The position numbers were made by a program, and so were the translations under genes. 64,000 nt of DNA, from assembly GCF_900186955.1 (NCBI RefSeq), contig NZ_LT906438.1, forward strand, positions 1,984,001-2,048,000, written 5' to 3'. This document shows positions 3,723-42,912 of the stretch, one piece after another; position 1 is the stretch's first letter, and each line of letters starts with the position of its first letter. This stretch comes from Bacillus pumilus (GTDB lineage Bacteria > Bacillota > Bacilli > Bacillales > Bacillaceae). The notes under the pieces are model-generated. The model saw only the letters and a list, made by a program, of their open reading frames with translations. It was not told where the DNA came from and ran no database searches.

Positions 3723-6700
3723 TCAAATGGTTTTCAACTCGTTCTTCCATTCGGTTGTTTGTTCATAAACTTGTTCAATGACGGCCTGCTCTTTGGCATC
3801 TGTCGTTAGGCTCGTGATAAATGTTTGTTTTTGTTCACTTAGCTGCTCGAGCGCTTCTGTTTCATATCTTTCCGTAAACGTCTTCACCATCATGTCGTAC
3901 CTGCTCAGTAATTCTTCTTTTTCTTTATCAGCCCATTTCGTGGTTAACTGATGAAGAATGTCTCGAATCGCTTCAATAAACGCAGCCTTTCCATTCTGTT
4001 CAAAGAAAACTTTCGGTGATTTTTGTTTCTTTAAGAGCGGTTCGAATGGCGTTAGTTCAGCTTCGATTTCAATTTGTTTCAGCTCAGCATTTTTCTCTTC
4101 AGGCGGCGACAGTGAGAGAGAAAAGTAAGGGTCTTTTGCACATGCCGCCTGCAATCCTTTCTCCCACTCCTCTTGGAAGTATTGATGAATAAACGATTCC
4201 ATTCGGATATCAAGCGCCTTTAATTCCTGTACAAATTCAAATTCATAATCCTTTAGTGCCTTCTCAAGTGCTTTTTTCAATTGCTGTCCGAAATTCCCTT
4301 GAGATATTCCAGGATAAAAGGCTGTCTTAAAGAGATCATTCGCAAATAATGAGAGGCGCTGCACAATATGATAGAGCTGTTCATGTAAGTCCTTTTTCAC
4401 GCTTTCTGTCACTAGCTTAGATTGTTTTATCTGACTCATTTGATCAAGAATCGCTTCATAGGATGCGTCTATCTTTTTCTTTTCCACTTGCTTCTCATCT
4501 TCTGACTGATGCAGCGTCGCATGCAGTTTGTCGACCGTTCTACATAACGTACGTGCTTCAAAATATAACAGCTCGATCGCATCTTTCGTTAATTCTTCCT
4601 CTATAAAATAGTCGAGCTGCTTTCTAAGCTTTGCGTATTGATTATAAGCTGTCTCTCCATTTCCTTCGATCTCTTCCTTACTGGATACATGATGAAGGTT
4701 TGGGTTTCTTATGCCTTCTTTTGTGAGCTCATTTTTTACATAGTCAAAGACGGTGTCAAGCTCTGCTTGATCCTTTGCGAGATCAGCTGCATTGATAATA
4801 AAGAACATTTTATCCATGCTAAATGAATCTTTTACAAGCCCAAGCTTACGTAAAAATGACCGATCTGCCTTCGAAAAAGAGTGCTGGTAGTAAGTTAAAT
4901 AAAGAAGCGCATCTGCGTCCTTCATATATTGAAAGGCGATCTCTGTATGACGCTTATTCATACTGCTAGCGCCTGGCGTATCAACAATAGTCAGCCCTTT
5001 ATCTGTTAGAGGTGTACTCAAATAAACCGTCACTTCCTTCACCACACAAGAAACAGCTTCTTCCGCCACATATGGCCTCAGTTCTTGAAGAGTGACATGA
5101 AGCGGCGTTTGCTTAGTAATGTGATCAAGGAAACGGATATGTGCTTGTAAAAAATGTTCAACAATGACGCGGTGATCTTGTTCAAGCTGTCTTTTTTTAA
5201 GCGTTCGTTTGAGCTTGGATGTAAACGCCTCCCCTTTTTCTTCTGAGATCGGAAATCCTAGGATCTGATTGAGCTCCTCTAATATATCCTGTTCTGTTTT
5301 GAATACCACTTTGACACTTTCGTGAGGGTGATGTTCCGTCGGCCGCGTCAGCTTGTTAATGGTTGCCGTTGTTGGTGTGGGAGAGGATGGCAGCACCTTT
5401 CTCCCGACGAGAGCATTTGCAAAGGAAGATTTCCCCGAACTAAAAGCCCCAAATAAAGCGAGTGTGAATTCTTTCGCTTGCAGCCGTTTTGTTCGTTTTT
5501 CAAAGGACTTTCTTTGAGATTGGAGCGCATCTAATGGCAATAAAATCTGAGAAAGCTGCTCAAACTGGGCAATCGACTGTGCCGTCGTGACATGCTGTGA
5601 CTGACGCATTTGAGGTTGATCAATCTGCTTGTTCGGTTTTTCTTGGTCGCTCTCTTCAGGATGAATGGTCGCTTGCTCCTGCTTTAGCAGATCATGTTGC
5701 ATTTGTCTCTTTTTCGCATAAAACCAATCTTCTTCGATCTGTTCATCCGTTCCATTTTGCCATATATCCCATACATGCTGAACATCTCGCTTCATTTGTT
5801 CATTTTTTTCGATGCATTGCTCGAGTGTTTGGAGCTTTTTTGCAGACTGAGCCCATTTTTCTTGCTGCTCTGCTTGATCTTCCATAAGCTTGGCTTTCAG
5901 CGACTCCACCATTTGTTCAATCAGTGGCATCGCTTGCTGCTTAGCCTGTCTTCTCAAGGCTTCGCCAGCATCTTTTGCATATTGCAGTACGTATTCATTG
6001 GAGAACGTTGCTCCATGATGAATCACACTTTCAAGAAGTGATTCTTGTACAGGTGTTTCAAACGCCATCACTTGATTTAATAACTCTTCACCAAGCTGAT
6101 GCTTCTTAACTTCTTTTTTTAGTAGCTCAGCAATATGCCAGTCCACTTCTGCCTTCATTCTCGCTTTGACATCTGTTAAGAAGTCAGTTGCCCGTTTTTC
6201 TTTTTCCTGCTCAGTTTTATTTTTAGCAAAAAGCAGTCCCACTTTAAAGCCAGGTGCTTTTGATTCAATATAGTCGCTTGCGAGTTCTCTCATTTTAAAT
6301 GGAGTTAGGTTGGCATTTTTCAAAATGCTCTCGACTTCAGTAGATACTTCTTCTTCTAACTGTTTGGCTCCATTTTCAATGAAGTGATTTTTCGCTTCCA
6401 AATCCTTTACTTCTTTTCTTTTTTCTTGGAGCTGTGACTCAAGCTCTTCACCTTGCAGCTCTTCTTTTAACGAGTCAATGTGTTCTTTTAAGACATGCTC
6501 AATTTTCTGCTCCGTATAAGCCCGAAGTGAGGCTTTCGGCAACGTCTGTAATTCTTGCAGTTTTTTGATTAAACGAATCATTTCATTTCTTGGATGCGTC
6601 TCATCGGTTACAGATGTAAAGTATAGATGATCTTCTTCAATGCCTTCTTTAAGGAGCATGTCAACCACTTGATTTTTGTAGTCTTCAAATGCTGTCTCAT

Positions 6701-7322
6701 GCTCATCATGCCGGTCCACTTGATTCACGATGAAATAGAGATTTGGCACTTTTTCTTTGATGGAGCGAATGAAACGAATGTTTTCTTCAGAATGAACATG
6801 GTTGTAGTGAACGACATAAAAAAGAGCATCTGCTTGATGAAGAATAGACGCAGCAGATAAAAAGTGGGCATGATCCGTGGAATCAATTCCTGGCGTATCA
6901 ATCAGTGCCACTTTTTCTTCAAGGCCTATATAGTCACCGCTAATTTCCACCATCTCAATCTGTTCTCCATCCTTACAGAAACGCTGTACTGCTTCTTTAT
7001 CATAGGAGCCGCTCATTTTTGCAAAACGGCCATCAGAGGTGTGAAGCTGCACTTCACTTTCCCCTTTCCTCACGACGACCAAGTTTGCACTTGTTGGGAT
7101 TGGACTCGTTGGCAAAATGTGATCATGAAGCAGATGATTCACAAGTGATGACTTTCCAGCAGAATAGTGGCCGGTAAATGCGATATATACTTCTTCTTCT
7201 GCTTCCTTTTTGATAATCGATGCAAGTTTGGCAGCGCGCTCATGATCATCCCTTTTGAGAAAGCTTTGATATAAAGCTCCTGTAGTTTGAACGAGCGAAT
7301 CTCGAATAGACAAGTCTTTCAT
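3723..7322 (-). CDS. dynA: DynA, bacterial dynamin-like protein with two GTPase domains
   Basis: 1199 residues with two dynamin units in tandem. Unit 1 has its P-loop GHYSAGKSS at residues 51-59 and DTPGIDSTD near 140; unit 2 has GAFSSGKSS near 624 and VDTPGASSMN further on. Each is followed by long charged coiled-coil stretches. In B. subtilis DynA tethers and fuses membranes, helps membrane repair and phage tolerance, and acts at the cytoplasmic membrane. The ATG has AAAGGGG about ten bases upstream. It lies downstream of a Fur-box-bearing promoter, though a strong terminator at 7416-7476 intervenes, so part of its expression may depend on read-through or a local promoter. Confidence 0.95.
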   Translation of the reverse strand: MKDLSIRDSLVQTTGALYQSFLKRDDHERAAKLASIIKKEAEEEVYIAFTGHYSAGKSSLVNHLLHDHILPTSPIPTSANLVVVRKGESEVQLHTSDGRFAKMSGSYDKEAVQRFCKDGEQIEMVEISGDYIGLEEKVALIDTPGIDSTDHAHFLSAASILHQADALFYVVHYNHVHSEENIRFIRSIKEKVPNLYFIVNQVDRHDEHETAFEDYKNQVVDMLLKEGIEEDHLYFTSVTDETHPRNEMIRLIKKLQELQTLPKASLRAYTEQKIEHVLKEHIDSLKEELQGEELESQLQEKRKEVKDLEAKNHFIENGAKQLEEEVSTEVESILKNANLTPFKMRELASDYIESKAPGFKVGLLFAKNKTEQEKEKRATDFLTDVKARMKAEVDWHIAELLKKEVKKHQLGEELLNQVMAFETPVQESLLESVIHHGATFSNEYVLQYAKDAGEALRRQAKQQAMPLIEQMVESLKAKLMEDQAEQQEKWAQSAKKLQTLEQCIEKNEQMKRDVQHVWDIWQNGTDEQIEEDWFYAKKRQMQHDLLKQEQATIHPEESDQEKPNKQIDQPQMRQSQHVTTAQSIAQFEQLSQILLPLDALQSQRKSFEKRTKRLQAKEFTLALFGAFSSGKSSFANALVGRKVLPSSPTPTTATINKLTRPTEHHPHESVKVVFKTEQDILEELNQILGFPISEEKGEAFTSKLKRTLKKRQLEQDHRVIVEHFLQAHIRFLDHITKQTPLHVTLQELRPYVAEEAVSCVVKEVTVYLSTPLTDKGLTIVDTPGASSMNKRHTEIAFQYMKDADALLYLTYYQHSFSKADRSFLRKLGLVKDSFSMDKMFFIINAADLAKDQAELDTVFDYVKNELTKEGIRNPNLHHVSSKEEIEGNGETAYNQYAKLRKQLDYFIEEELTKDAIELLYFEARTLCRTVDKLHATLHQSEDEKQVEKKKIDASYEAILDQMSQIKQSKLVTESVKKDLHEQLYHIVQRLSLFANDLFKTAFYPGISQGNFGQQLKKALEKALKDYEFEFVQELKALDIRMESFIHQYFQEEWEKGLQAACAKDPYFSLSLSPPEEKNAELKQIEIEAELTPFEPLLKKQKSPKVFFEQNGKAAFIEAIRDILHQLTTKWADKEKEELLSRYDMMVKTFTERYETEALEQLSEQKQTFITSLTTDAKEQAVIEQVYEQTTEWKNELKTI

Positions 7323-7476: not shown

Positions 7477-7548
7477 GACACCTTTTAATACGAAGCCAAT
7501 TAATAGGCTGTACACACACACCGTACCGAGTAAGAAAATCATTGTCAT
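7456..7548 (-). CDS. fbpC: Fur-regulated small membrane peptide (FbpC-like)
   Basis: 30 residues starting MTMIFLLGTVCVYSLLIGF, with one hydrophobic helix followed by a short basic tail (VLKGVSKKSAS). GGTGATC precedes the ATG. A well-formed sigma-A promoter flanked by two Fur boxes lies upstream. I recall that one of the three small Fur-regulated proteins of the B. subtilis iron-sparing response, FbpC (about 29 residues), is encoded beside ypbR/dynA. Position, size and Fur control fit, but the name rests on memory and not on an alignment. Confidence 0.6.
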   Translation of the reverse strand: MTMIFLLGTVCVYSLLIGFVLKGVSKKSAS

Positions 7549-7573
7549 GTGATCACCGTCCATCCTTCATGAT

Positions 7574-7588
7574 TGAGAATGCTTATCA
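7574..7588 (-). promoter_or_regulatory. Fur box 1 (downstream of the -10)
   Basis: TGAGAATGCTTATCA matches the 7-1-7 Fur consensus TGATAAT-N-ATTATCA at 12 of 14 positions. It lies just after the predicted transcription start of the small peptide gene. Confidence 0.7.
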
Positions 7589-7596
7589 TTAATGAA

Positions 7597-7625
7597 AGTG
7601 TAGCACAATTGATAATGATTTTCAA
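7597..7625 (-). promoter_or_regulatory. Sigma-A promoter of the small peptide (and dynA)
   Basis: On the minus strand TTGAAA (7620-7625) and TACACT (7597-7602) are separated by exactly 17 bases. Fur box 2 covers the -35 and spacer, so iron-loaded Fur should block polymerase. Confidence 0.75.
7610..7624 (-). promoter_or_regulatory. Fur box 2 (over the -35)
   Basis: TGATAATGATTTTCA matches the Fur 7-1-7 consensus at 13 of 14 positions, with a perfect left half. It sits immediately beyond the bpsB stop codon. Confidence 0.75.
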
Positions 7626-7627
7626 TA

Positions 7628-8137
7628 TTAATTTAGCAAATACTGATTTAATGCTTTCTCCTCTGTTTGAATTCGTACAGCCATCATCCATGCATTTAAA
7701 CATGTAAACAAAATGGCAGTGACATACGCATCAAACAATAGCGGGATCAGTAAAAGCTCAATCGCCACGACTACATAGTTAGGATGTTTCAACCAGCGAT
7801 ACGGTCCTTTTTTTACAATCATCGCGTTTGGTACGACTAAAATTTTCGTATTCCAGTACGTCCCAAGGGAGCATAATGCCCAGTATCGAATGACCTGTGT
7901 AGCCATGAGAAAAAGGAGCAGCACAAGAAAATAACGGGACGGCCCCTTATGTAAAAGCCCTATCTCAACTATAAGTGAGAGAAAAAAAGCCGTATGCATA
8001 GCGACCATATAGGGATAATGACTAGCACCAAATTCAATGGCACCTAGTGCTTTTACTTTCTTTTCATTTCTTTTGGCCACAAGCATTTCAATGAGCCGTT
8101 GACAAACGAAGAAACCGATGACAAGCCAAATGATCAT
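7628..8137 (-). CDS. bpsB: BpsB, alkylpyrone O-methyltransferase (ICMT-like)
   Basis: 169 residues with about four membrane helices and the isoprenylcysteine methyltransferase signature near the C-terminus (GPYRWLKHPNYVVVAIELL, then EEKAL). In B. subtilis BpsB methylates the alkylpyrones made by BpsA. The ATG at 8137 overlaps the bpsA stop (ATGA) and has GGGAGGAGGT six bases upstream; the frame is open 22 codons further but without such a site. Confidence 0.88.
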   Translation of the reverse strand: MIIWLVIGFFVCQRLIEMLVAKRNEKKVKALGAIEFGASHYPYMVAMHTAFFLSLIVEIGLLHKGPSRYFLVLLLFLMATQVIRYWALCSLGTYWNTKILVVPNAMIVKKGPYRWLKHPNYVVVAIELLLIPLLFDAYVTAILFTCLNAWMMAVRIQTEEKALNQYLLN

Positions 8138-9234
8138 GACAAGACCTCCTCCCACTTCATAAGAAGCAGCTCTGAGGAAAAGCCCGGACCAAGCGCCCCG
8201 CAAAGTCCCATCTCCCCCTCTTCAGCTGATTGATGTTCCAGGAAATGCTTGATGACATACAAAACTGTGGCAGAGGACATATTTCCGTGTTGTTTGAGTA
8301 CTTCTTTTGAAGAAAACAGCTGATCCTCTCGTAAAGATAGACTTTCAACATAGGCATCAATCACTTTTTTTCCTCCAGGATGGGCTAGAAATACGGATAA
8401 GTCATTAGTTGAATATCCTTGCTCCTCTAAAAATTGATCCACCTGCTCTTTTAACCAGCCGGAAATCAAACTCGGAATGTCACGGGAGAAAATAACCCGA
8501 AAGCCGTCACTTGTAAATTCCCAGCCCATCACATCCTCAGAATCTTTCATTGTGACAGATTGCGTGCTTAGTACTTTAGGGACCGTTTTTAAATGGGCAT
8601 ATTCAAGCGCAGCTTTTTCCCCAGCTAAAAGAACCGCTGCCGTCCCGTCTCCAAACAAGGAGGTGCCGATTAAATTGCTTTTTGATTGATCTTGCGGCTG
8701 AAAGGTTAAACTGCACAGCTCACAGGCAACGACAAGTACCTTTGCTTCTGGAAATGCCCTTATGTATTCATAAGCTCGCGACAGCCCTGCCGCACCGCCC
8801 CCACACCCTAGGCCCCAGATCGGTACTCGTTTCGTATAAGGAGAAAAAGGAAGGACGTTCATGAGCTTTGCGTCAAGACTTGGGGTCGATAAGCCGGTAC
8901 TTGAAATAAAAAACAATGCATCGATCTCTTCAACCGGGACTGGTTTTTTTAGAAACTCCTTCTCTTGAAGACAATGTATGATCGCTTCCTTTGCATGAGC
9001 CAGTGCCTTTTCCAAATAGATATTGTTTTTCTCTTCAAAAGAGTGGTGCGTCTGATACCATTCAATGGGCTGCACAAACTGCCTGCTCTGAATTTCTCCA
9101 TTTTGAAAAGCTCTCAGCAGCCGGTCAATATCTTTAAACGATCGTTTAAATTGAGACCTAGCAAAATCAGCAGCTGTTTTCTGATCCACGTGATGCTTCG
9201 GGTGACTCGTTCCAACTGAAAGAATGTACGCCAT
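8134..9234 (-). CDS. bpsA: BpsA, type III polyketide (alkylpyrone) synthase
   Basis: 366 residues. The chalcone-synthase-fold catalytic triad is present: Cys about 144 in GLGCGGGAAG, His about 285 in AHPGGKK and Asn about 318 in HGNMSSATV. The family condenses long-chain acyl-CoA with malonyl-CoA to make triketide pyrones, which BpsB then methylates. The ATG at 9234 has AGAGGTG six bases upstream; the GTG three codons earlier overlaps that site. Translationally coupled to bpsB. Confidence 0.93.
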   Translation of the reverse strand: MAYILSVGTSHPKHHVDQKTAADFARSQFKRSFKDIDRLLRAFQNGEIQSRQFVQPIEWYQTHHSFEEKNNIYLEKALAHAKEAIIHCLQEKEFLKKPVPVEEIDALFFISSTGLSTPSLDAKLMNVLPFSPYTKRVPIWGLGCGGGAAGLSRAYEYIRAFPEAKVLVVACELCSLTFQPQDQSKSNLIGTSLFGDGTAAVLLAGEKAALEYAHLKTVPKVLSTQSVTMKDSEDVMGWEFTSDGFRVIFSRDIPSLISGWLKEQVDQFLEEQGYSTNDLSVFLAHPGGKKVIDAYVESLSLREDQLFSSKEVLKQHGNMSSATVLYVIKHFLEHQSAEEGEMGLCGALGPGFSSELLLMKWEEVLS

Positions 9235-9339
9235 CGGCTTCACCTCTTTTTTCGGTTAATATCCCCTATCGAAAAAAGGATATACATGCCGAACCGTCAC
9301 AATTCAGTCAAAACATTTTCCTCCGTCTAACTTTTTGTC

Positions 9340-9368
9340 TTGACGACAATTGATAAATATTGGATAAT
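9340..9368 (+). promoter_or_regulatory. Sigma-A promoter of a candidate small RNA
   Basis: TTGACG (9340-9345) and GATAAT (9363-9368) are spaced by exactly 17 bases. The strand is antisense to both neighbouring genes and no ORF follows. Confidence 0.6.
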
Positions 9369-9374
9369 ATAGGT

Positions 9375-9438
9375 GAAAACATGATGTAGTTTTCCTCCTT
9401 CACAGGTTCGTTCCAAGCCAAGCGAACCTGCTTTTTTT
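9375..9438 (+). ncRNA. Candidate trans-acting small RNA, about 64 nt
   Basis: The predicted transcript begins about seven bases after the -10 and ends in the T run of a strong terminator. It would fold into two hairpins: a 5' stem GAAAAC (9375-9380)/GTTTTC (9389-9394), and the terminator stem (9403-9430). The eight bases between them, CTCCTTCA, hold CUCCUU, the exact complement of the Shine-Dalgarno AAGGAG. The only start codons are followed at once by a stop (ATGATGTAG), so it does not encode a protein. The layout resembles C-rich Gram-positive small RNAs that block ribosome binding (FsrA, RoxS), but it is at a different locus. Expression is inferred. Confidence 0.55.
9403..9438 (+). terminator. 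Terminator of the candidate small RNA
   Basis: Eight-base GC-rich stem CAGGTTCG/CGAACCTG with a 12-base loop, followed by CTTTTTTT. Confidence 0.8.
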
Positions 9439-9536
9439 ATGTAAGCTATGTTCAAGAATAATATTGATTCAGTAAAAAATAAAAGGACTCTCTTTGAATT
9501 TCCTCTCTTATCAACACCTAAAACGCAAAACTTCAC

Positions 9537-10148
9537 CTAAATCATTTCAAGGATTGACTTAATAAAATCAGTTTTTTCATCTGCGTATTTGTGTTTGTCA
9601 TTTTCATGTAAACTTGATAATTTAAGTTTAAGCTGTTGGTATTCACTTCTAGCTTGCTCGTTATTGCTCAAGTAATCTCTGAAATTTAACTGTTCAAGTA
9701 AATACTTATTGTCTCTTTGGTACATATGGATTTGATGTGTTCTTGGTTCTCCTTTATTAAAGTAGTGTCTTTCAGGTAATACATTTGTTCCTTTATATGA
9801 GTAACCGAGTCCTTCCAAAGCTACTACACATTTTTCTCCATCAAAAAAATGATCTATTTCAATTGCAATATCAATAATTGGCTTAGCGCTTAAACCTTTT
9901 ACTGCTGTACTTCCAATATGGTGTACATTGACTGTGTATTGACCAATATCACCTATTATCTTTCGCTTTTCTCTTTCAAATTCTTTTGTCCACTCAATAG
10001 ACCAAGGGACTAAAAAGACTTCCCCTCTTGGTAATCCCAGTATTTGCTTATCCCACCTTTTTAATTTTAACGTCCATTTGGAAAATTTTAATAAACCAAG
10101 TTTATCATAGGTCTCATATGTAGAGAGCAGACAGATTTCAATAATCAT
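9537..10148 (-). CDS. GrpB-family (UPF0157) nucleotidyltransferase-fold protein
   Basis: 203 residues. The UPF0157/GrpB core is clear: LGLPRGEVFLVPWSIEW, then HHIGSTAVKGLSAKPIIDIAI and a C-terminal NDKHKYADEKTDFI helix. The HIGSTAV motif is the nucleotidyltransferase-like signature. Function in the family is unsettled. About 35 residues precede the usual family start, so the true start may be internal; no good ribosome site decides it. The gene is more AT-rich than its neighbours and lies beside a transposase remnant, which suggests horizontal gain. Confidence 0.7.
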   Translation of the reverse strand: MIIEICLLSTYETYDKLGLLKFSKWTLKLKRWDKQILGLPRGEVFLVPWSIEWTKEFEREKRKIIGDIGQYTVNVHHIGSTAVKGLSAKPIIDIAIEIDHFFDGEKCVVALEGLGYSYKGTNVLPERHYFNKGEPRTHQIHMYQRDNKYLLEQLNFRDYLSNNEQARSEYQQLKLKLSSLHENDKHKYADEKTDFIKSILEMI

Positions 10149-10287
10149 CCTATTCGTTTAGATCTATTTCTTGGTTGATGTCATTCAATACGATTCTTAA
10201 CAATTCACTCTCATCTTATTTTATATCTAAAGAACAAAAATTCCCTTCAACCGATTATTAATAGAGTTATTTAACATAGCTTTATGC

Positions 10288-10316
10288 AAAAAAACACCTC
10301 TCAAATGAGAGGTGTT
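10288..10316 (-). terminator. Hairpin terminator near the transposase remnant
   Basis: Ten-base perfect stem AACACCTCTC/GAGAGGTGTT with a four-base loop; on the minus strand it is followed by seven T. Confidence 0.7.
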
Positions 10317-10329
10317 AGACCGTAGACAA

Positions 10330-10361
10330 ACCCCACCTTTACTTCAAGTAAAAGTGGGGTT
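10330..10361. repeat. Inverted repeat beside the transposase remnant
   Basis: CCCCACCTTTACTT pairs with AAGTAAAAGTGGGG (one mismatch) around a short loop, with T runs on both strands. It could be a bidirectional terminator or the end of the vanished insertion sequence. Confidence 0.5.
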
Positions 10362-10362
10362 T

Positions 10363-10810
10363 TCACTTACCAGCTTCTGTTCTCGGACGAGTGTAAGGCT
10401 TGACAGGTCTTATCTCTTGATCCATTAAAAACATAGCGATATATGGTGTTTTATATACAGCATCTACCGTGTCTACATTTCGTTTTCCGATTTTCTCTGT
10501 CACCTGTTATACGAGTGAATTTAACATACGAGTATCATGAACATTGCCACCTGTGACCAGTGATCCAAAAATAAATCCTGTTGAATCACAAGCTGTATGA
10601 AAGGAATAAGCAAATGACTTTTCACGTTCACCTTTTACATAGTAGCCAATCTCTGATTCAGTTGTACTGACTTTGATTTCTTTTGTTTCTTCTTTATTTT
10701 GTAGGGGTAAGAGCTTACTCTATGTATTTCGCGATTGATCGCCTCTATCTCCAATATCCACATGAGCATCCTTTTTTCAATGAAATCGTCATTATACAAC
10801 ACTTTCATAC
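10363..10810 (-). pseudogene. Decayed IS1182-like transposase (C-terminal fragment)
   Basis: Translation of the minus strand gives a transposase C-terminal region: EIKVSTTESEIGYYVKGER, SFAYSFHTACDSTGFIFGS, GGNVHDTRMLNSLV and IRPVKPYTRPRTEAGK, typical of IS1182-family DDE transposases. An in-frame TAA (10507-10509) interrupts it after NSLV. Upstream, a segment reading EIEAINREIH lies in a different frame from KLLPLQNKEETKEIK, showing an indel. The N-terminal half is missing. It is dead and marks a past insertion. Confidence 0.8.
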
Positions 10811-11102
10811 GGAATCTCCCTTTCGCTTCGCATTAATGGTTAAATCTGATGCTATCTTAGCGTATAAATATCAACGTTTCGATCATTATTCAGAATGATT
10901 TCATTTAAACATGAATGGATCACCTTTTTTTCTGATCAATACAAAGCAATAACCATGAAATGCTAATTTATTTGATTATTATATATAAAAAGGTGTTTTT
11001 TTCCTGTATACTTAATCAATATGAACACCATGAAAAACAGTGAAAAAAGATAGAATCTACTACATGATTCGGCACAAAATTTAATTGACTGGAGTGATTG
11101 TA
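10811..11102. other. AT-rich intergenic region upstream of the deacetylase
   Basis: No convincing gene is visible. TATACT near 11010 follows a long T run and may be a -10 for the deacetylase gene, but no good -35 is present. Confidence 0.4.
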
Positions 11103-11957
11103 ATGAAAAAGGTGTCCAAAAAACAGACACCCTACAACACGATACTTCTCTCGAAGATAATTGGTTTAGTGCTTCTTACACTGTTTCTCTTTTTTATCTG
11201 GGATATGTCTAAACCCCATTTGCAGGCGACAAATGGGCAAGCAAAAATTGTTGCCAGCAGTGACTTCCGAGACACAAGCATCAGTCTGAAAGCAAAAGAT
11301 CATTCTACAAGAACATTGGATACACATGTTAAGACCAATCCAAACCAACAGACAACGAATAAAACGGTCTTTTTAACATTTGATGATGGTCCTACTGCTA
11401 CATCAAATCAGCTGTTAAATGTATTAAAAGCACATCACGTGAAGGCGACATTTTTCATGCTTGGACCGCAAATCCAAGCACACCAAGCAGCTGTGAAAAG
11501 ACTTTATCAAGAAGGACATCAATTAGGGCTTCATGGCATGACGCATGATATAAACCGCTTTTATCAGAACAGTGAGTCTCCCGCAAATGAAATGAGAGAA
11601 GCTCAGCGCATTCTTGCTTCTGTTACAGGCGTTTACACCCGTCTTGTGAGAACACCCTATGGCAGTGTTCCAAATTTAACATATCATCAAAAAGTACGTT
11701 TAAACCAAAATGGCTTTATTTACTGGGATTGGACGATTGATAGCCTTGACTGGAGATATAAAAACTCACAATATGTTCCAGAGGTATTGAATCAACTGCA
11801 AATGTTTGAGAAAAATAACCCATGGGAACCAAAAGTTATTTTAATGCATGATCAACCCTCTACCACAAACTATTTAGATAGCCTGATTACACAGCTAAAA
11901 GCAAGGGGCTATACATTTGCAGTCATTAACGAAACAATGCAGCCGGTACAACATTAA
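11103..11957 (+). CDS. Membrane-anchored polysaccharide deacetylase (NodB domain)
   Basis: 284 residues. A basic N-terminus and one membrane helix (about residues 14-34) are followed by a linker and a NodB domain from about residue 88. All five motifs are visible: TFDDGP (about 92), HGMTH metal-binding histidines, RTPYGS, DWTIDSLDW and ILMHD. It should act outside the membrane, removing N-acetyl groups from peptidoglycan or another glycan. B. subtilis relatives include YheN and PdaC; I cannot choose one. The ATG at 11103 has GGAGTGAT upstream, which rules out the in-frame TTG six codons earlier. Confidence 0.85.
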   Translation: MKKVSKKQTPYNTILLSKIIGLVLLTLFLFFIWDMSKPHLQATNGQAKIVASSDFRDTSISLKAKDHSTRTLDTHVKTNPNQQTTNKTVFLTFDDGPTATSNQLLNVLKAHHVKATFFMLGPQIQAHQAAVKRLYQEGHQLGLHGMTHDINRFYQNSESPANEMREAQRILASVTGVYTRLVRTPYGSVPNLTYHQKVRLNQNGFIYWDWTIDSLDWRYKNSQYVPEVLNQLQMFEKNNPWEPKVILMHDQPSTTNYLDSLITQLKARGYTFAVINETMQPVQH

Positions 11958-12007: not shown

Positions 12008-14010
<2,003 letters not shown>

Positions 14011-14040
14011 TCAGCTCAAACAAGAGCTGTTTCATTTGCT

Positions 14041-14109
14041 CACTCATAGTCGGACGGTATCGGTGTCCGGTAGAAACTTGCGTGCCATCATCACGCGATT
14101 ATATGAGTG
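14041..14109 (-). promoter_or_regulatory. Guanine-sensing purine riboswitch aptamer
   Basis: On the minus strand P1 is formed by CACTCATA...TATGAGTG, enclosing the conserved core ATAATCGCGTG and TCCGACTATG. The pyrimidine that sets specificity is C (in CCGACTATG), as in the B. subtilis xpt guanine switch; an adenine switch would have U. It controls xpt-pbuX in cis through the terminator at 13955-13991. Confidence 0.95.
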
Positions 14110-14122
14110 TTATAGTGTTCAA

Positions 14123-14151
14123 ATTATAACAAGATTTCAGACGCTTGGAAA
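14123..14151 (-). promoter_or_regulatory. Promoter of xpt-pbuX
   Basis: Extended -10 TGTTATAAT (TATAAT at 14123-14128) with a weak -35 TTTCCA (14146-14151) 17 bases upstream. Transcription would begin just before the aptamer. Confidence 0.75.
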
Positions 14152-41050: not shown

Positions 41051-41909
41051 GCTTTTCACCGCTTTCAGGAACATGGAATATCACATTATCAATCAGTCTT
41101 GCCCGTGAGAATTTCACCGCAATCGCAATGATGACCTGACCTGCTAACTGCTGAAGCGGCTCAAGCTCTGGATAGGAGTAAATCTCAATATAATCAATTT
41201 CCCCGCTCGTTTGAAGAATTTCTTCTTCTACCAACTGATAAATGCGACTGACGTCACGTTCACCTTTTTCAACCGCTGACTGTCCTTTTTTCAATGCGCG
41301 GTACAAAGCAGGAGCTTCTTGTCTTTCTTTATCAGACAAGTACACATTTCTTGAACTTTTCGCTAAACCGTCTTCTTCCCTAACTGTCGGCACTGAGACA
41401 AGATGAAGATCAAAGAAGAAATCCTTGATCATCGCATCGATCACAGCGACTTGCTGCGCATCCTTTAGACCAAAGTATACATTTGTTGGTGCTACAAGAT
41501 GAAATAGCTTTGTCAGCACAGTCACAACGCCGCCGAAATGTCCTGGGCGTTTTTTCCCGCATAAGACATCAGTCCGCTTTTGAACCGTCATCGTGATCGA
41601 TGGTTCATTTGGATACATTTCTTTCACATCAGGTGTAAATAAAATATCTACCCCTGCTTCTTCTGCAAGGCGCTGATCTCTTTCCATATCCCTTGGATAG
41701 GATTCAAAGTCTTCGTTCGGTCCAAATTGCAAGGGATTGACAAAAATACTCATTACCACAATGTCATTTTGATCTCTTGCTTCTTTCGCAAGCGTCAGAT
41801 GTCCTTCATGAAGAAAGCCCATCGTTGGGACAAAGCCGATGGAATGCTGTTTTTCTTGATGCAGCTTGATCAATTCCTTCAACTCGTGAATATGGGTGAC
41901 AACGTTCAT
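41043..41909 (-). CDS. panC: Pantothenate synthetase
   Basis: 288 residues. ATP-binding [16 protein letters not shown] and the later SSRNVYLS are the two adenylation motifs; [17 protein letters not shown] binds substrate. It joins pantoate and beta-alanine. The ATG overlaps the panB stop (ATGA). Confidence 0.96.
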
Positions 41910-42745
41910 TTTTTGATCCCCCCATATAAACCATCAAGGACTTCTTCTTTGATATGAAATGTATGCTTGTCTTCTGGAAATGTGTGTGCTTTTACTTCTT
42001 TTGTATATTGAATAAGCGCTTCTTCTAATACAGTATCCATTTGCGCGTATTGTTTCACAAACTTAGGTGTCCTAGACACGCCGTATCCTACCACATCATG
42101 GTAAACGAGAACTTGTCCGTCTGCCTCAGCCCCTGCACCAATCCCGATCACAGGAATCTTCAGCATGTCGGTAATTCGTTTTGTCAGTTCACCAGGTACG
42201 CATTCAAGCACAAGTGCAATCGCACCAGCTTCCTCACATTTTAAGCTGTCTTCAATCAATTTCTGCGCACTTTCGTGGTCTTTTCCTTGCACTTTATACC
42301 CGCCAAGTACTCCAACTGACTGAGGTGTGAGGCCTAAATGACTGACGACAGGAATTCCGCCTCTTGTAAGGGCTTGAATGGATTCAAATACGCCATCTCC
42401 ACCTTCTAGCTTTAAGGCATCCGCACCGCTTTCTTGCATGATGCGTGCTGCGTTTTTCAATGTTTCTGCTAATGAATAATGGTAAGACATAAATGGCATA
42501 TCCGTCACAATAAATGTGTCTTTTGCGCCTCTTTTCACTGCTTTTGTATGATGAATCATGTCATCGATCGTGACTTGTACTGTCGAATCGAGTCCAAGTA
42601 CAACCATCCCAAGTGAATCACCGACTAAGATCATGTCGACTTCCGCTTTTTCTGCTTGCTTTGCAGATGGATAGTCGTATGCTGTCAGCATTACAATTGG
42701 TTCATTTTGTTCTTTCATTTTGAAAAAATCTAGCTTTGTCTTCAT
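41906..42745 (-). CDS. panB: Ketopantoate hydroxymethyltransferase
   Basis: 279 residues, TIM barrel. [37 protein letters not shown] and the [19 protein letters not shown] segment are family signatures. It is the first step of pantoate synthesis from 2-oxoisovalerate. GGAGGAACAA precedes the ATG; a leader of about 160 nt lies upstream. Confidence 0.96.
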
Positions 42746-42912
42746 TTGTTCCTCCTCATTCTGGAGAGGAGATGGCTTGCCTCACATCACATGTTTTGAT
42801 CTCTCATGCGCGGCGAATCATCCCTCTGTCCAAGTCCCTTAGGATCAAGGCAGAAATTTATCAAATTTTTGTTTCTAACAGGTACAGCTCTTTTCAGATA
42901 CTGCCCACACGA

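Follow-up and report, generated by a model that had tools for sequence, protein, structure and literature searches.

A short stretch of Bacillus pumilus DNA, lying between a type III polyketide synthase gene and a GrpB-family gene, raises the question of whether it encodes a small RNA (sRNA) and, if so, whether that RNA acts by covering ribosome-binding sites. The window analysed here is the whole 64,000-nucleotide stretch, and all positions refer to it; G000 denotes the genome that holds it, and the other G-numbers denote the genomes compared with it. The promoter, the predicted RNA of about 64 nt, the CU-rich stretch and the strong terminator that the original prediction placed at 9340–9438 are all present in the sequence, and the locus is laid out as follows.

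8134–9243, minus strand: neighbouring gene for a type III polyketide synthase (bpsA-like; PF00195/PF02797), divergent from the sRNA
9310–9339, plus strand: conserved block upstream of the promoter, a possible regulator or UP site (low variability in 17 bpsA-linked loci)
9340–9368, plus strand: sigma-A type promoter TTGACG-17-GATAAT (TTGACG 9340–9345, 17-nt spacer, GATAAT 9363–9368)
9375–9438, plus strand: ncr982 sRNA, predicted transcript (RF02454 match 9372–9446; 5′ end placed from the promoter)
9375–9394, plus strand: predicted 5′ hairpin GAAAAC/GTTTTC of the bpsA-linked type (GAAAAC 9375–9380, GTTTTC 9389–9394)
9391–9402, plus strand: CU-rich stretch TTTCCTCCTTCA, complementary to Shine-Dalgarno sequences (CTCCTT 9395–9400; CTCCTTCA 9395–9402)
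9403–9438, plus strand: intrinsic terminator, from sequence and predicted fold (hairpin 9403–9430, T run 9432–9438)
9537–10148, minus strand: neighbouring GrpB-family gene (PF04229), adjoining the sRNA in 3 of the 17 bpsA-linked loci (cluster c11: G000, G061, G064)

The outer eight pairs of the terminator stem are perfect, as had been described, but the full stem comprises 10 pairs including one G-U. The first ATG opens a frame of two codons (ATG ATG TAG, 9381–9389), in agreement with the claim that it yields no longer peptide.

The RNA matches the catalogued family ncr982

Comparison with Rfam identified positions 9372–9446 as RF02454 (ncr982, “Bacillus sRNA”) at 76 bits against a gathering cut-off of 50, spanning model positions 1–79 of 79, with E-values of 3.6e-10 and, for a search of 9300–9500, 1.1e-12. 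Within 9300–9500, ncr982 was the sole Rfam family to match at E up to 1. Judged by this model match, the window sRNA is a full-length copy of a catalogued Bacillus family, and the gene is already known; the locus had been thought unfamiliar for any sRNA, a view that the Rfam entry overturns.

PMC3574147 describes B. subtilis ncr982 as an 81-nt Hfq co-immunoprecipitation peak between fosB and lexA (1917500–1917580), with a ratio of 47.7 in the fourth row of its Table 1, from a protocol in which strand information is lost. The RF02454 match in G004, taken as B. subtilis, falls at 1917502–1917581. The B. subtilis copy and the window copy have the same promoter hexamers, CU stretch and terminator, whereas the window copy adjoins bpsA rather than lexA and carries the GAAAAC/GTTTTC hairpin. 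Deletion of hfq left the detected sRNAs unchanged during exponential growth in rich medium, in a report whose accessible text does not name ncr982 (PMC4410918). For B. licheniformis, PMC3871023 reports detection of 11 from a set of 22 validated sRNAs of B. subtilis. The literature searched contained no functional study of ncr982, and searches under later names for it (S-numbers guessed from map position) returned nothing relevant.

ncr982 is spread across the genus and occupies two genomic homes

Of the 44 genus genomes, 34 have a match above the RF02454 cut-off, and a 35th, G036, reaches E 0.001, below the cut-off; across 397 genomes of the order it matches in 11, all of the genus. Inspection downstream of lexA, which covered the nine unmatched genomes and G036, located diverged ncr982 copies with promoter, CU stretch and terminator in eight of the nine, so that the Rfam threshold misses a copy in 9 of the 44 genomes (the eight located by position and G036; loci L072–L080). 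A model of our own, built from 33 copies, places ncr982 in 43 of the 44 genomes, 33 of these matches being given by construction and the other ten being bpsA-linked copies close to the modelled ones. G026 is the sole genus genome with no copy, either by model or behind lexA. Outside the genus, no convincing copy was found among the order genomes: the only addition made there by our model, G078, was rejected as a homologue, its better match being a mere terminator behind a gene and its second match reaching 34.2 bits.

The 43 copies fall into two settings. Twenty-six lie tail-to-tail with lexA (18 found by Rfam and eight by position), and 17, the window copy included, lie head-to-head with bpsA. 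In G000, lexA is at 1756 kb and the sRNA at 1993 kb, 237 kb apart, and the 420 bases behind lexA contain no ncr982 copy; adjacency to lexA, which is typical of the family without defining it, is thus absent here. The promoter hexamers and the sRNA itself are common to both homes, as is a TTTCC upstream of the −35 element, while a more extended resemblance, with AAC and a T run ahead of TTGAC, was seen by eye between the window and the diverged copies only. A role in cis on lexA or bpsA was rejected, since different lineages have different genes beside the sRNA. The occurrence of this RNA with its promoter in two homes argues for a free-standing sRNA gene, which on this comparison is unlikely to work through its neighbours. 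An extra segment at 9442–10282, holding the GrpB-family gene, stands beside the sRNA in three of the 17 bpsA-linked loci (G000, G061 and G064); in G000 it carries AAGCTATGTT at 9443 and the reverse complement AACATAGCTT at 10273, near its two ends and each near TATG, and looks inserted.

Promoter and RNA are constrained

Across the 17 bpsA-linked loci, variable positions number 4 of 64 in the RNA, 2 of 29 in the promoter (9340–9368) and 7 of 40 in the upstream block (9300–9339), against 27 of 56 in the spacer (9244–9299) and 129 of 285 aligned bpsA codons. TTGA and GATAAT are invariant in 24 aligned copies, as is the TTT of the upstream TTTCC. The locus therefore has its own promoter and intrinsic terminator, as judged by consensus and conservation, and from this pattern of constraint we regard it as a real, well-conserved sRNA gene. 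The case is carried by conservation and not by motif, because CTCCTT alone is common, with 21 plus-strand and 18 minus-strand occurrences in the 64-kb window.

Fur and Rex boxes, sought by consensus at up to 3 mismatches, gave 13 and 11 matches in the window, respectively, and LexA boxes at up to 2 mismatches gave 13, none of them in 9300–9440; TGATAAATATTGGAT at 9351–9365 resembles a Fur box more poorly, outside the limit. Many lexA-linked copies (for example L028, L033 and L037) carry an inverted repeat resembling GTTTCC-TWAA-GGAAA upstream of the promoter. The upstream box AAGTTTCCTNNRNGAAA occurs once each in five of eight genomes, four times at the ncr982 promoter and once elsewhere in G000; with sites almost solely at that promoter, no regulon is seen in these eight genomes.

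A terminator hairpin and a mostly unpaired CU arm are the shared predicted design

The 65-nt RNA 9374–9438 has a predicted folding energy of −18.4 kcal/mol (z −3.99, with 0 of 200 shuffles as good), and its predicted fold matches the earlier description. For a 78-nt version, 9369–9446, the z-score is −3.06 (3 of 200 shuffles as good), and AGG at 9371–9373 pairs with CCT at 9397–9399 of the seed. The claim that the seed is unpaired therefore stands for the 65-nt predicted fold but may fail for an RNA that begins no later than 9371; of the 17 bpsA-linked copies, 11 have this AGG. Over all 43 arms, the 8 nt around the CU stretch have a mean predicted unpaired probability of at least 0.58, with a median of 0.88; the bpsA-linked copies give about 0.63 because three hairpin bases fall inside the counted 8-nt window, and CUCCUU is not thereby paired.

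The consensus structure across 33 copies consists of the terminator alone, with 9 pairs, of which 4 show two-sided changes, and 3 broken cells. A hairpin of the GAAAAC/GTTTTC type is predicted in all 17 bpsA-linked copies and is absent from that consensus, a different small hairpin is predicted in the arms of G014 and G006, and 24 of the 43 arms have no predicted hairpin within them. For G019, the predicted fold has five bases of the arm, at its CU stretch, pairing elsewhere; an arm hairpin would form in G002 if its RNA started a few bases earlier, and both G002 and G013 lack the ACATGATGT part. Two hairpins consequently do not define this sRNA, contrary to the original prediction, and on these predicted folds the two-hairpin, anti-Shine-Dalgarno picture describes the bpsA-linked variant, the general design being simpler.

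The arm sequence is likewise looser than a single motif. TTCCTC occurs in 38 of the 43 arms (the exceptions being G025, G001, G027, G006 and G023), CCTCC in 33 and CTCCTT in 24, the others carrying CCTCCTA, CCTTCC, CCTCT, CCCTCT or CCTTT, so that CUCCUU cannot be regarded as a fixed seed. A covariance search, proposed earlier as a check, bears out genus-wide conservation. Of the 43 arms, 39 have CAT ahead of the CU stretch. What holds of the earlier claim is a conserved, free-standing sRNA gene whose RNA has a stretch complementary to Shine-Dalgarno sequences, left mostly unpaired by the predicted folds. Judged by the comparison of 43 copies, the features that matter are the CU stretch, the terminator and the promoter together with the block upstream of it, and neither the 5′ hairpin nor the neighbouring gene is among them; a mutagenesis plan in B. 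subtilis 168 follows from it.

The CU arm probably masks Shine-Dalgarno sites in trans

Transcription from the sigma-A type promoter would yield an RNA of about 64 nt in which a CU-rich arm at the 5′ end precedes the terminator hairpin. This arm, which reads UUUUCCUCCUU here and UUCCUC in most copies, would base-pair in trans with Shine-Dalgarno regions on several mRNAs and block ribosome binding, perhaps with Hfq. A mostly unpaired, GGAGG-complementary pyrimidine stretch beside a terminator hairpin fits such pairing; we infer that the RNA is transcribed in this organism, that it pairs and that it represses. Our main reading, that the window holds this genome's ncr982 and that its CU arm most likely masks Shine-Dalgarno sites of several mRNAs in trans, perhaps with Hfq, is given a probability of roughly two in three. 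Counting against it, a bare Shine-Dalgarno complement is little specific: 27 sites in G000 fit AGGAGGAAAAN(2-8)ATG, against 2 for the reversed pattern, and one of the 27 is the antisense of the sRNA itself.

That the promoter and terminator came together by chance and have no function is barely credible. As a class, promoter-like sites show no excess over shuffled sequence (10 in 7500–11500 against 11.6 expected) and CTCCTT is frequent, as noted above, yet genus-wide conservation and constraint make chance very unlikely. The ncr982 promoter is the only one of those ten sites to score 10/12, and of the 19 promoters in the 64 kb with at least 10/12 it alone has a strong terminator 40–110 nt downstream, by the criteria of our script. 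It is also highly improbable that the sRNA encodes a tiny peptide from its ATG. ATGATG occurs in 32 of 43 arms, 11 of which keep the frame open as far as the terminator, mostly as MMFFFLLF..., but the frame stops after two codons in the other 21, sequence beyond the first residues is out of register in G020, G023 and G015, the GGTG before the ATG varies and is placed no later than the inferred start, and 11 of the 43 arms have no ATGATG; the peptide was rejected.

An RNA that works chiefly as a sponge or protein ligand, titrating a G-rich RNA such as RosA or occupying Hfq or another protein with mRNA pairing secondary, is rather improbable. The Hfq enrichment of ncr982 in B. subtilis (PMC3574147) and the binding of C-rich sRNAs by the G-rich sponge RosA (PMC8216469) would suit it, as would the loose conservation of the exact seed, but Shine-Dalgarno complementarity is kept in most arms, and ncr982 is absent from the searchable text of the RosA paper (PMC8216469).

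The CU stretch resembles the anti-Shine-Dalgarno 3′ tail of 16S rRNA. A broader proposal builds on this likeness: the RNA may be a genus-wide translation damper whose arm mimics that tail, mirrors a whole ribosome-binding site (Shine-Dalgarno sequence, spacer and AUG) and competes with the ribosome on many messages with strong Shine-Dalgarno sequences, perhaps those of ribosomal protein genes. Its promoter would carry an upstream box of its own, and the gene would have moved as one unit between the lexA and bpsA homes with little change in sequence. Taken whole, this proposal is doubtful.

Candidate targets

The pattern AGGAGGAAAAN(2-8)ATG was run in five genomes, and start regions were compared from three of them (26 from G000, 22 from G004 and 22 from G032; 70 in total), with the sites antisense to the sRNA (G000 and G004), one duplicate G004 site and the sites of G011 and G036 omitted beforehand. 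Among pattern sites, duplex comparisons and orthologues, no target was found that keeps pairing beyond the Shine-Dalgarno sequence across lineages. One rplP-like gene has a site in each of the three genomes, its duplexes being −27.1, −21.1 and −27.8; it was not counted as evidence, because strong Shine-Dalgarno sequences would persist in ribosomal protein genes anyway. Eight further site-bearing genes are common to two genomes at ≥50% identity. A second pattern, GGAGGN(5-13)CATGTTT, gave no obvious shared target in the five genomes, judged from the matched strings.

An arm that mirrors the whole ribosome-binding site could instead serve a few specific targets, the CU stretch pairing with the Shine-Dalgarno sequence and the upstream ACAUGAUGU with the start codon, as the CAT retained before the CU stretch in those 39 arms would allow; we consider this unlikely. 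The bpsA-linked candidate is a ycdA-like DUF4352 lipoprotein gene (G000:C1:282 kb). Its predicted duplex with the G000 sRNA reaches −35.3 kcal/mol, whereas 59 start regions of the window with script-chosen starts average −17.4 (sd 4.3) and at best reach −27.3; shuffling the 5′ part of the arm 2000 times never attained the −33.3 of the 30-nt arm. Duplex energies run from −26.6 to −35.3 over the 15 bpsA-linked genomes whose start was chosen correctly. The G000 duplex is, however, the best of 26 preselected sites; in G004, 551 of 2000 shuffles were as good, the G022 and G025 genes pair poorly (−14.6 and −11.1), and the protein is unmatched in 4 of 44 genomes, including the bpsA-linked G067. The spacer between Shine-Dalgarno sequence and start also varies among bpsA-linked genomes, whereas the sRNA arm hardly varies. 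These comparisons covered 30 loci from the 40 genomes with a match, G017 having its start placed wrongly upstream and G023 entering without an sRNA. We treat the ycdA-like pairing as a lead bound to the bpsA-linked lineage, not as a result.

Likeness to known sRNAs

Searched over 9300–9500 at E up to 1, the sRNA locus gives no match to the FsrA family, for which Rfam presumably holds a model, and none to RoxS/RsaE or CsfG. The masking of Shine-Dalgarno sites that we favour resembles the proposed action of FsrA of B. subtilis, likewise a small sRNA, in which single-stranded C-rich sequence is proposed to base-pair with the ribosome-binding sites of mRNAs (PMC8464778) and for which Hfq enrichment is 11.1 (PMC3574147). 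RoxS/RsaE also binds mRNAs through C-rich regions, of which RoxS has four, and pairing at Shine-Dalgarno regions is reported for RoxS targets (PMC8464778); RoxS is common to S. aureus and B. subtilis (PMC4409812), and the ncr982 locus differs from it in lacking a Rex-like box with up to 3 mismatches as well as a family match. From the “FsrA/RoxS style” of the original prediction, only the proposed mode of action carries over, there being neither a family match nor a Fur or Rex box. CsfG shares conserved CU-rich stretches and Hfq enrichment (PMC3574147) but differs in its locus, ylbG-ylbH (PMC3574147), and in its sporulation sigma factors, F and G (PMC8216469).

Other observations in the window

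The 13 Fur-like matches in the window exceed the 6.4 expected, and none of 100 shuffles reached 13. Three of them fall within 7533–7624, in the gap upstream of a minus-strand gene at 3723–7322; their mismatches number 3, 2 and 1, and the best is TGATAATGATTTTCA at 7610. An ordinary purine riboswitch (14027–14126, minus strand) precedes the gene at 13324–14004, and an ordinary pan motif (42822–42907, minus strand) precedes the gene at 41906–42745.
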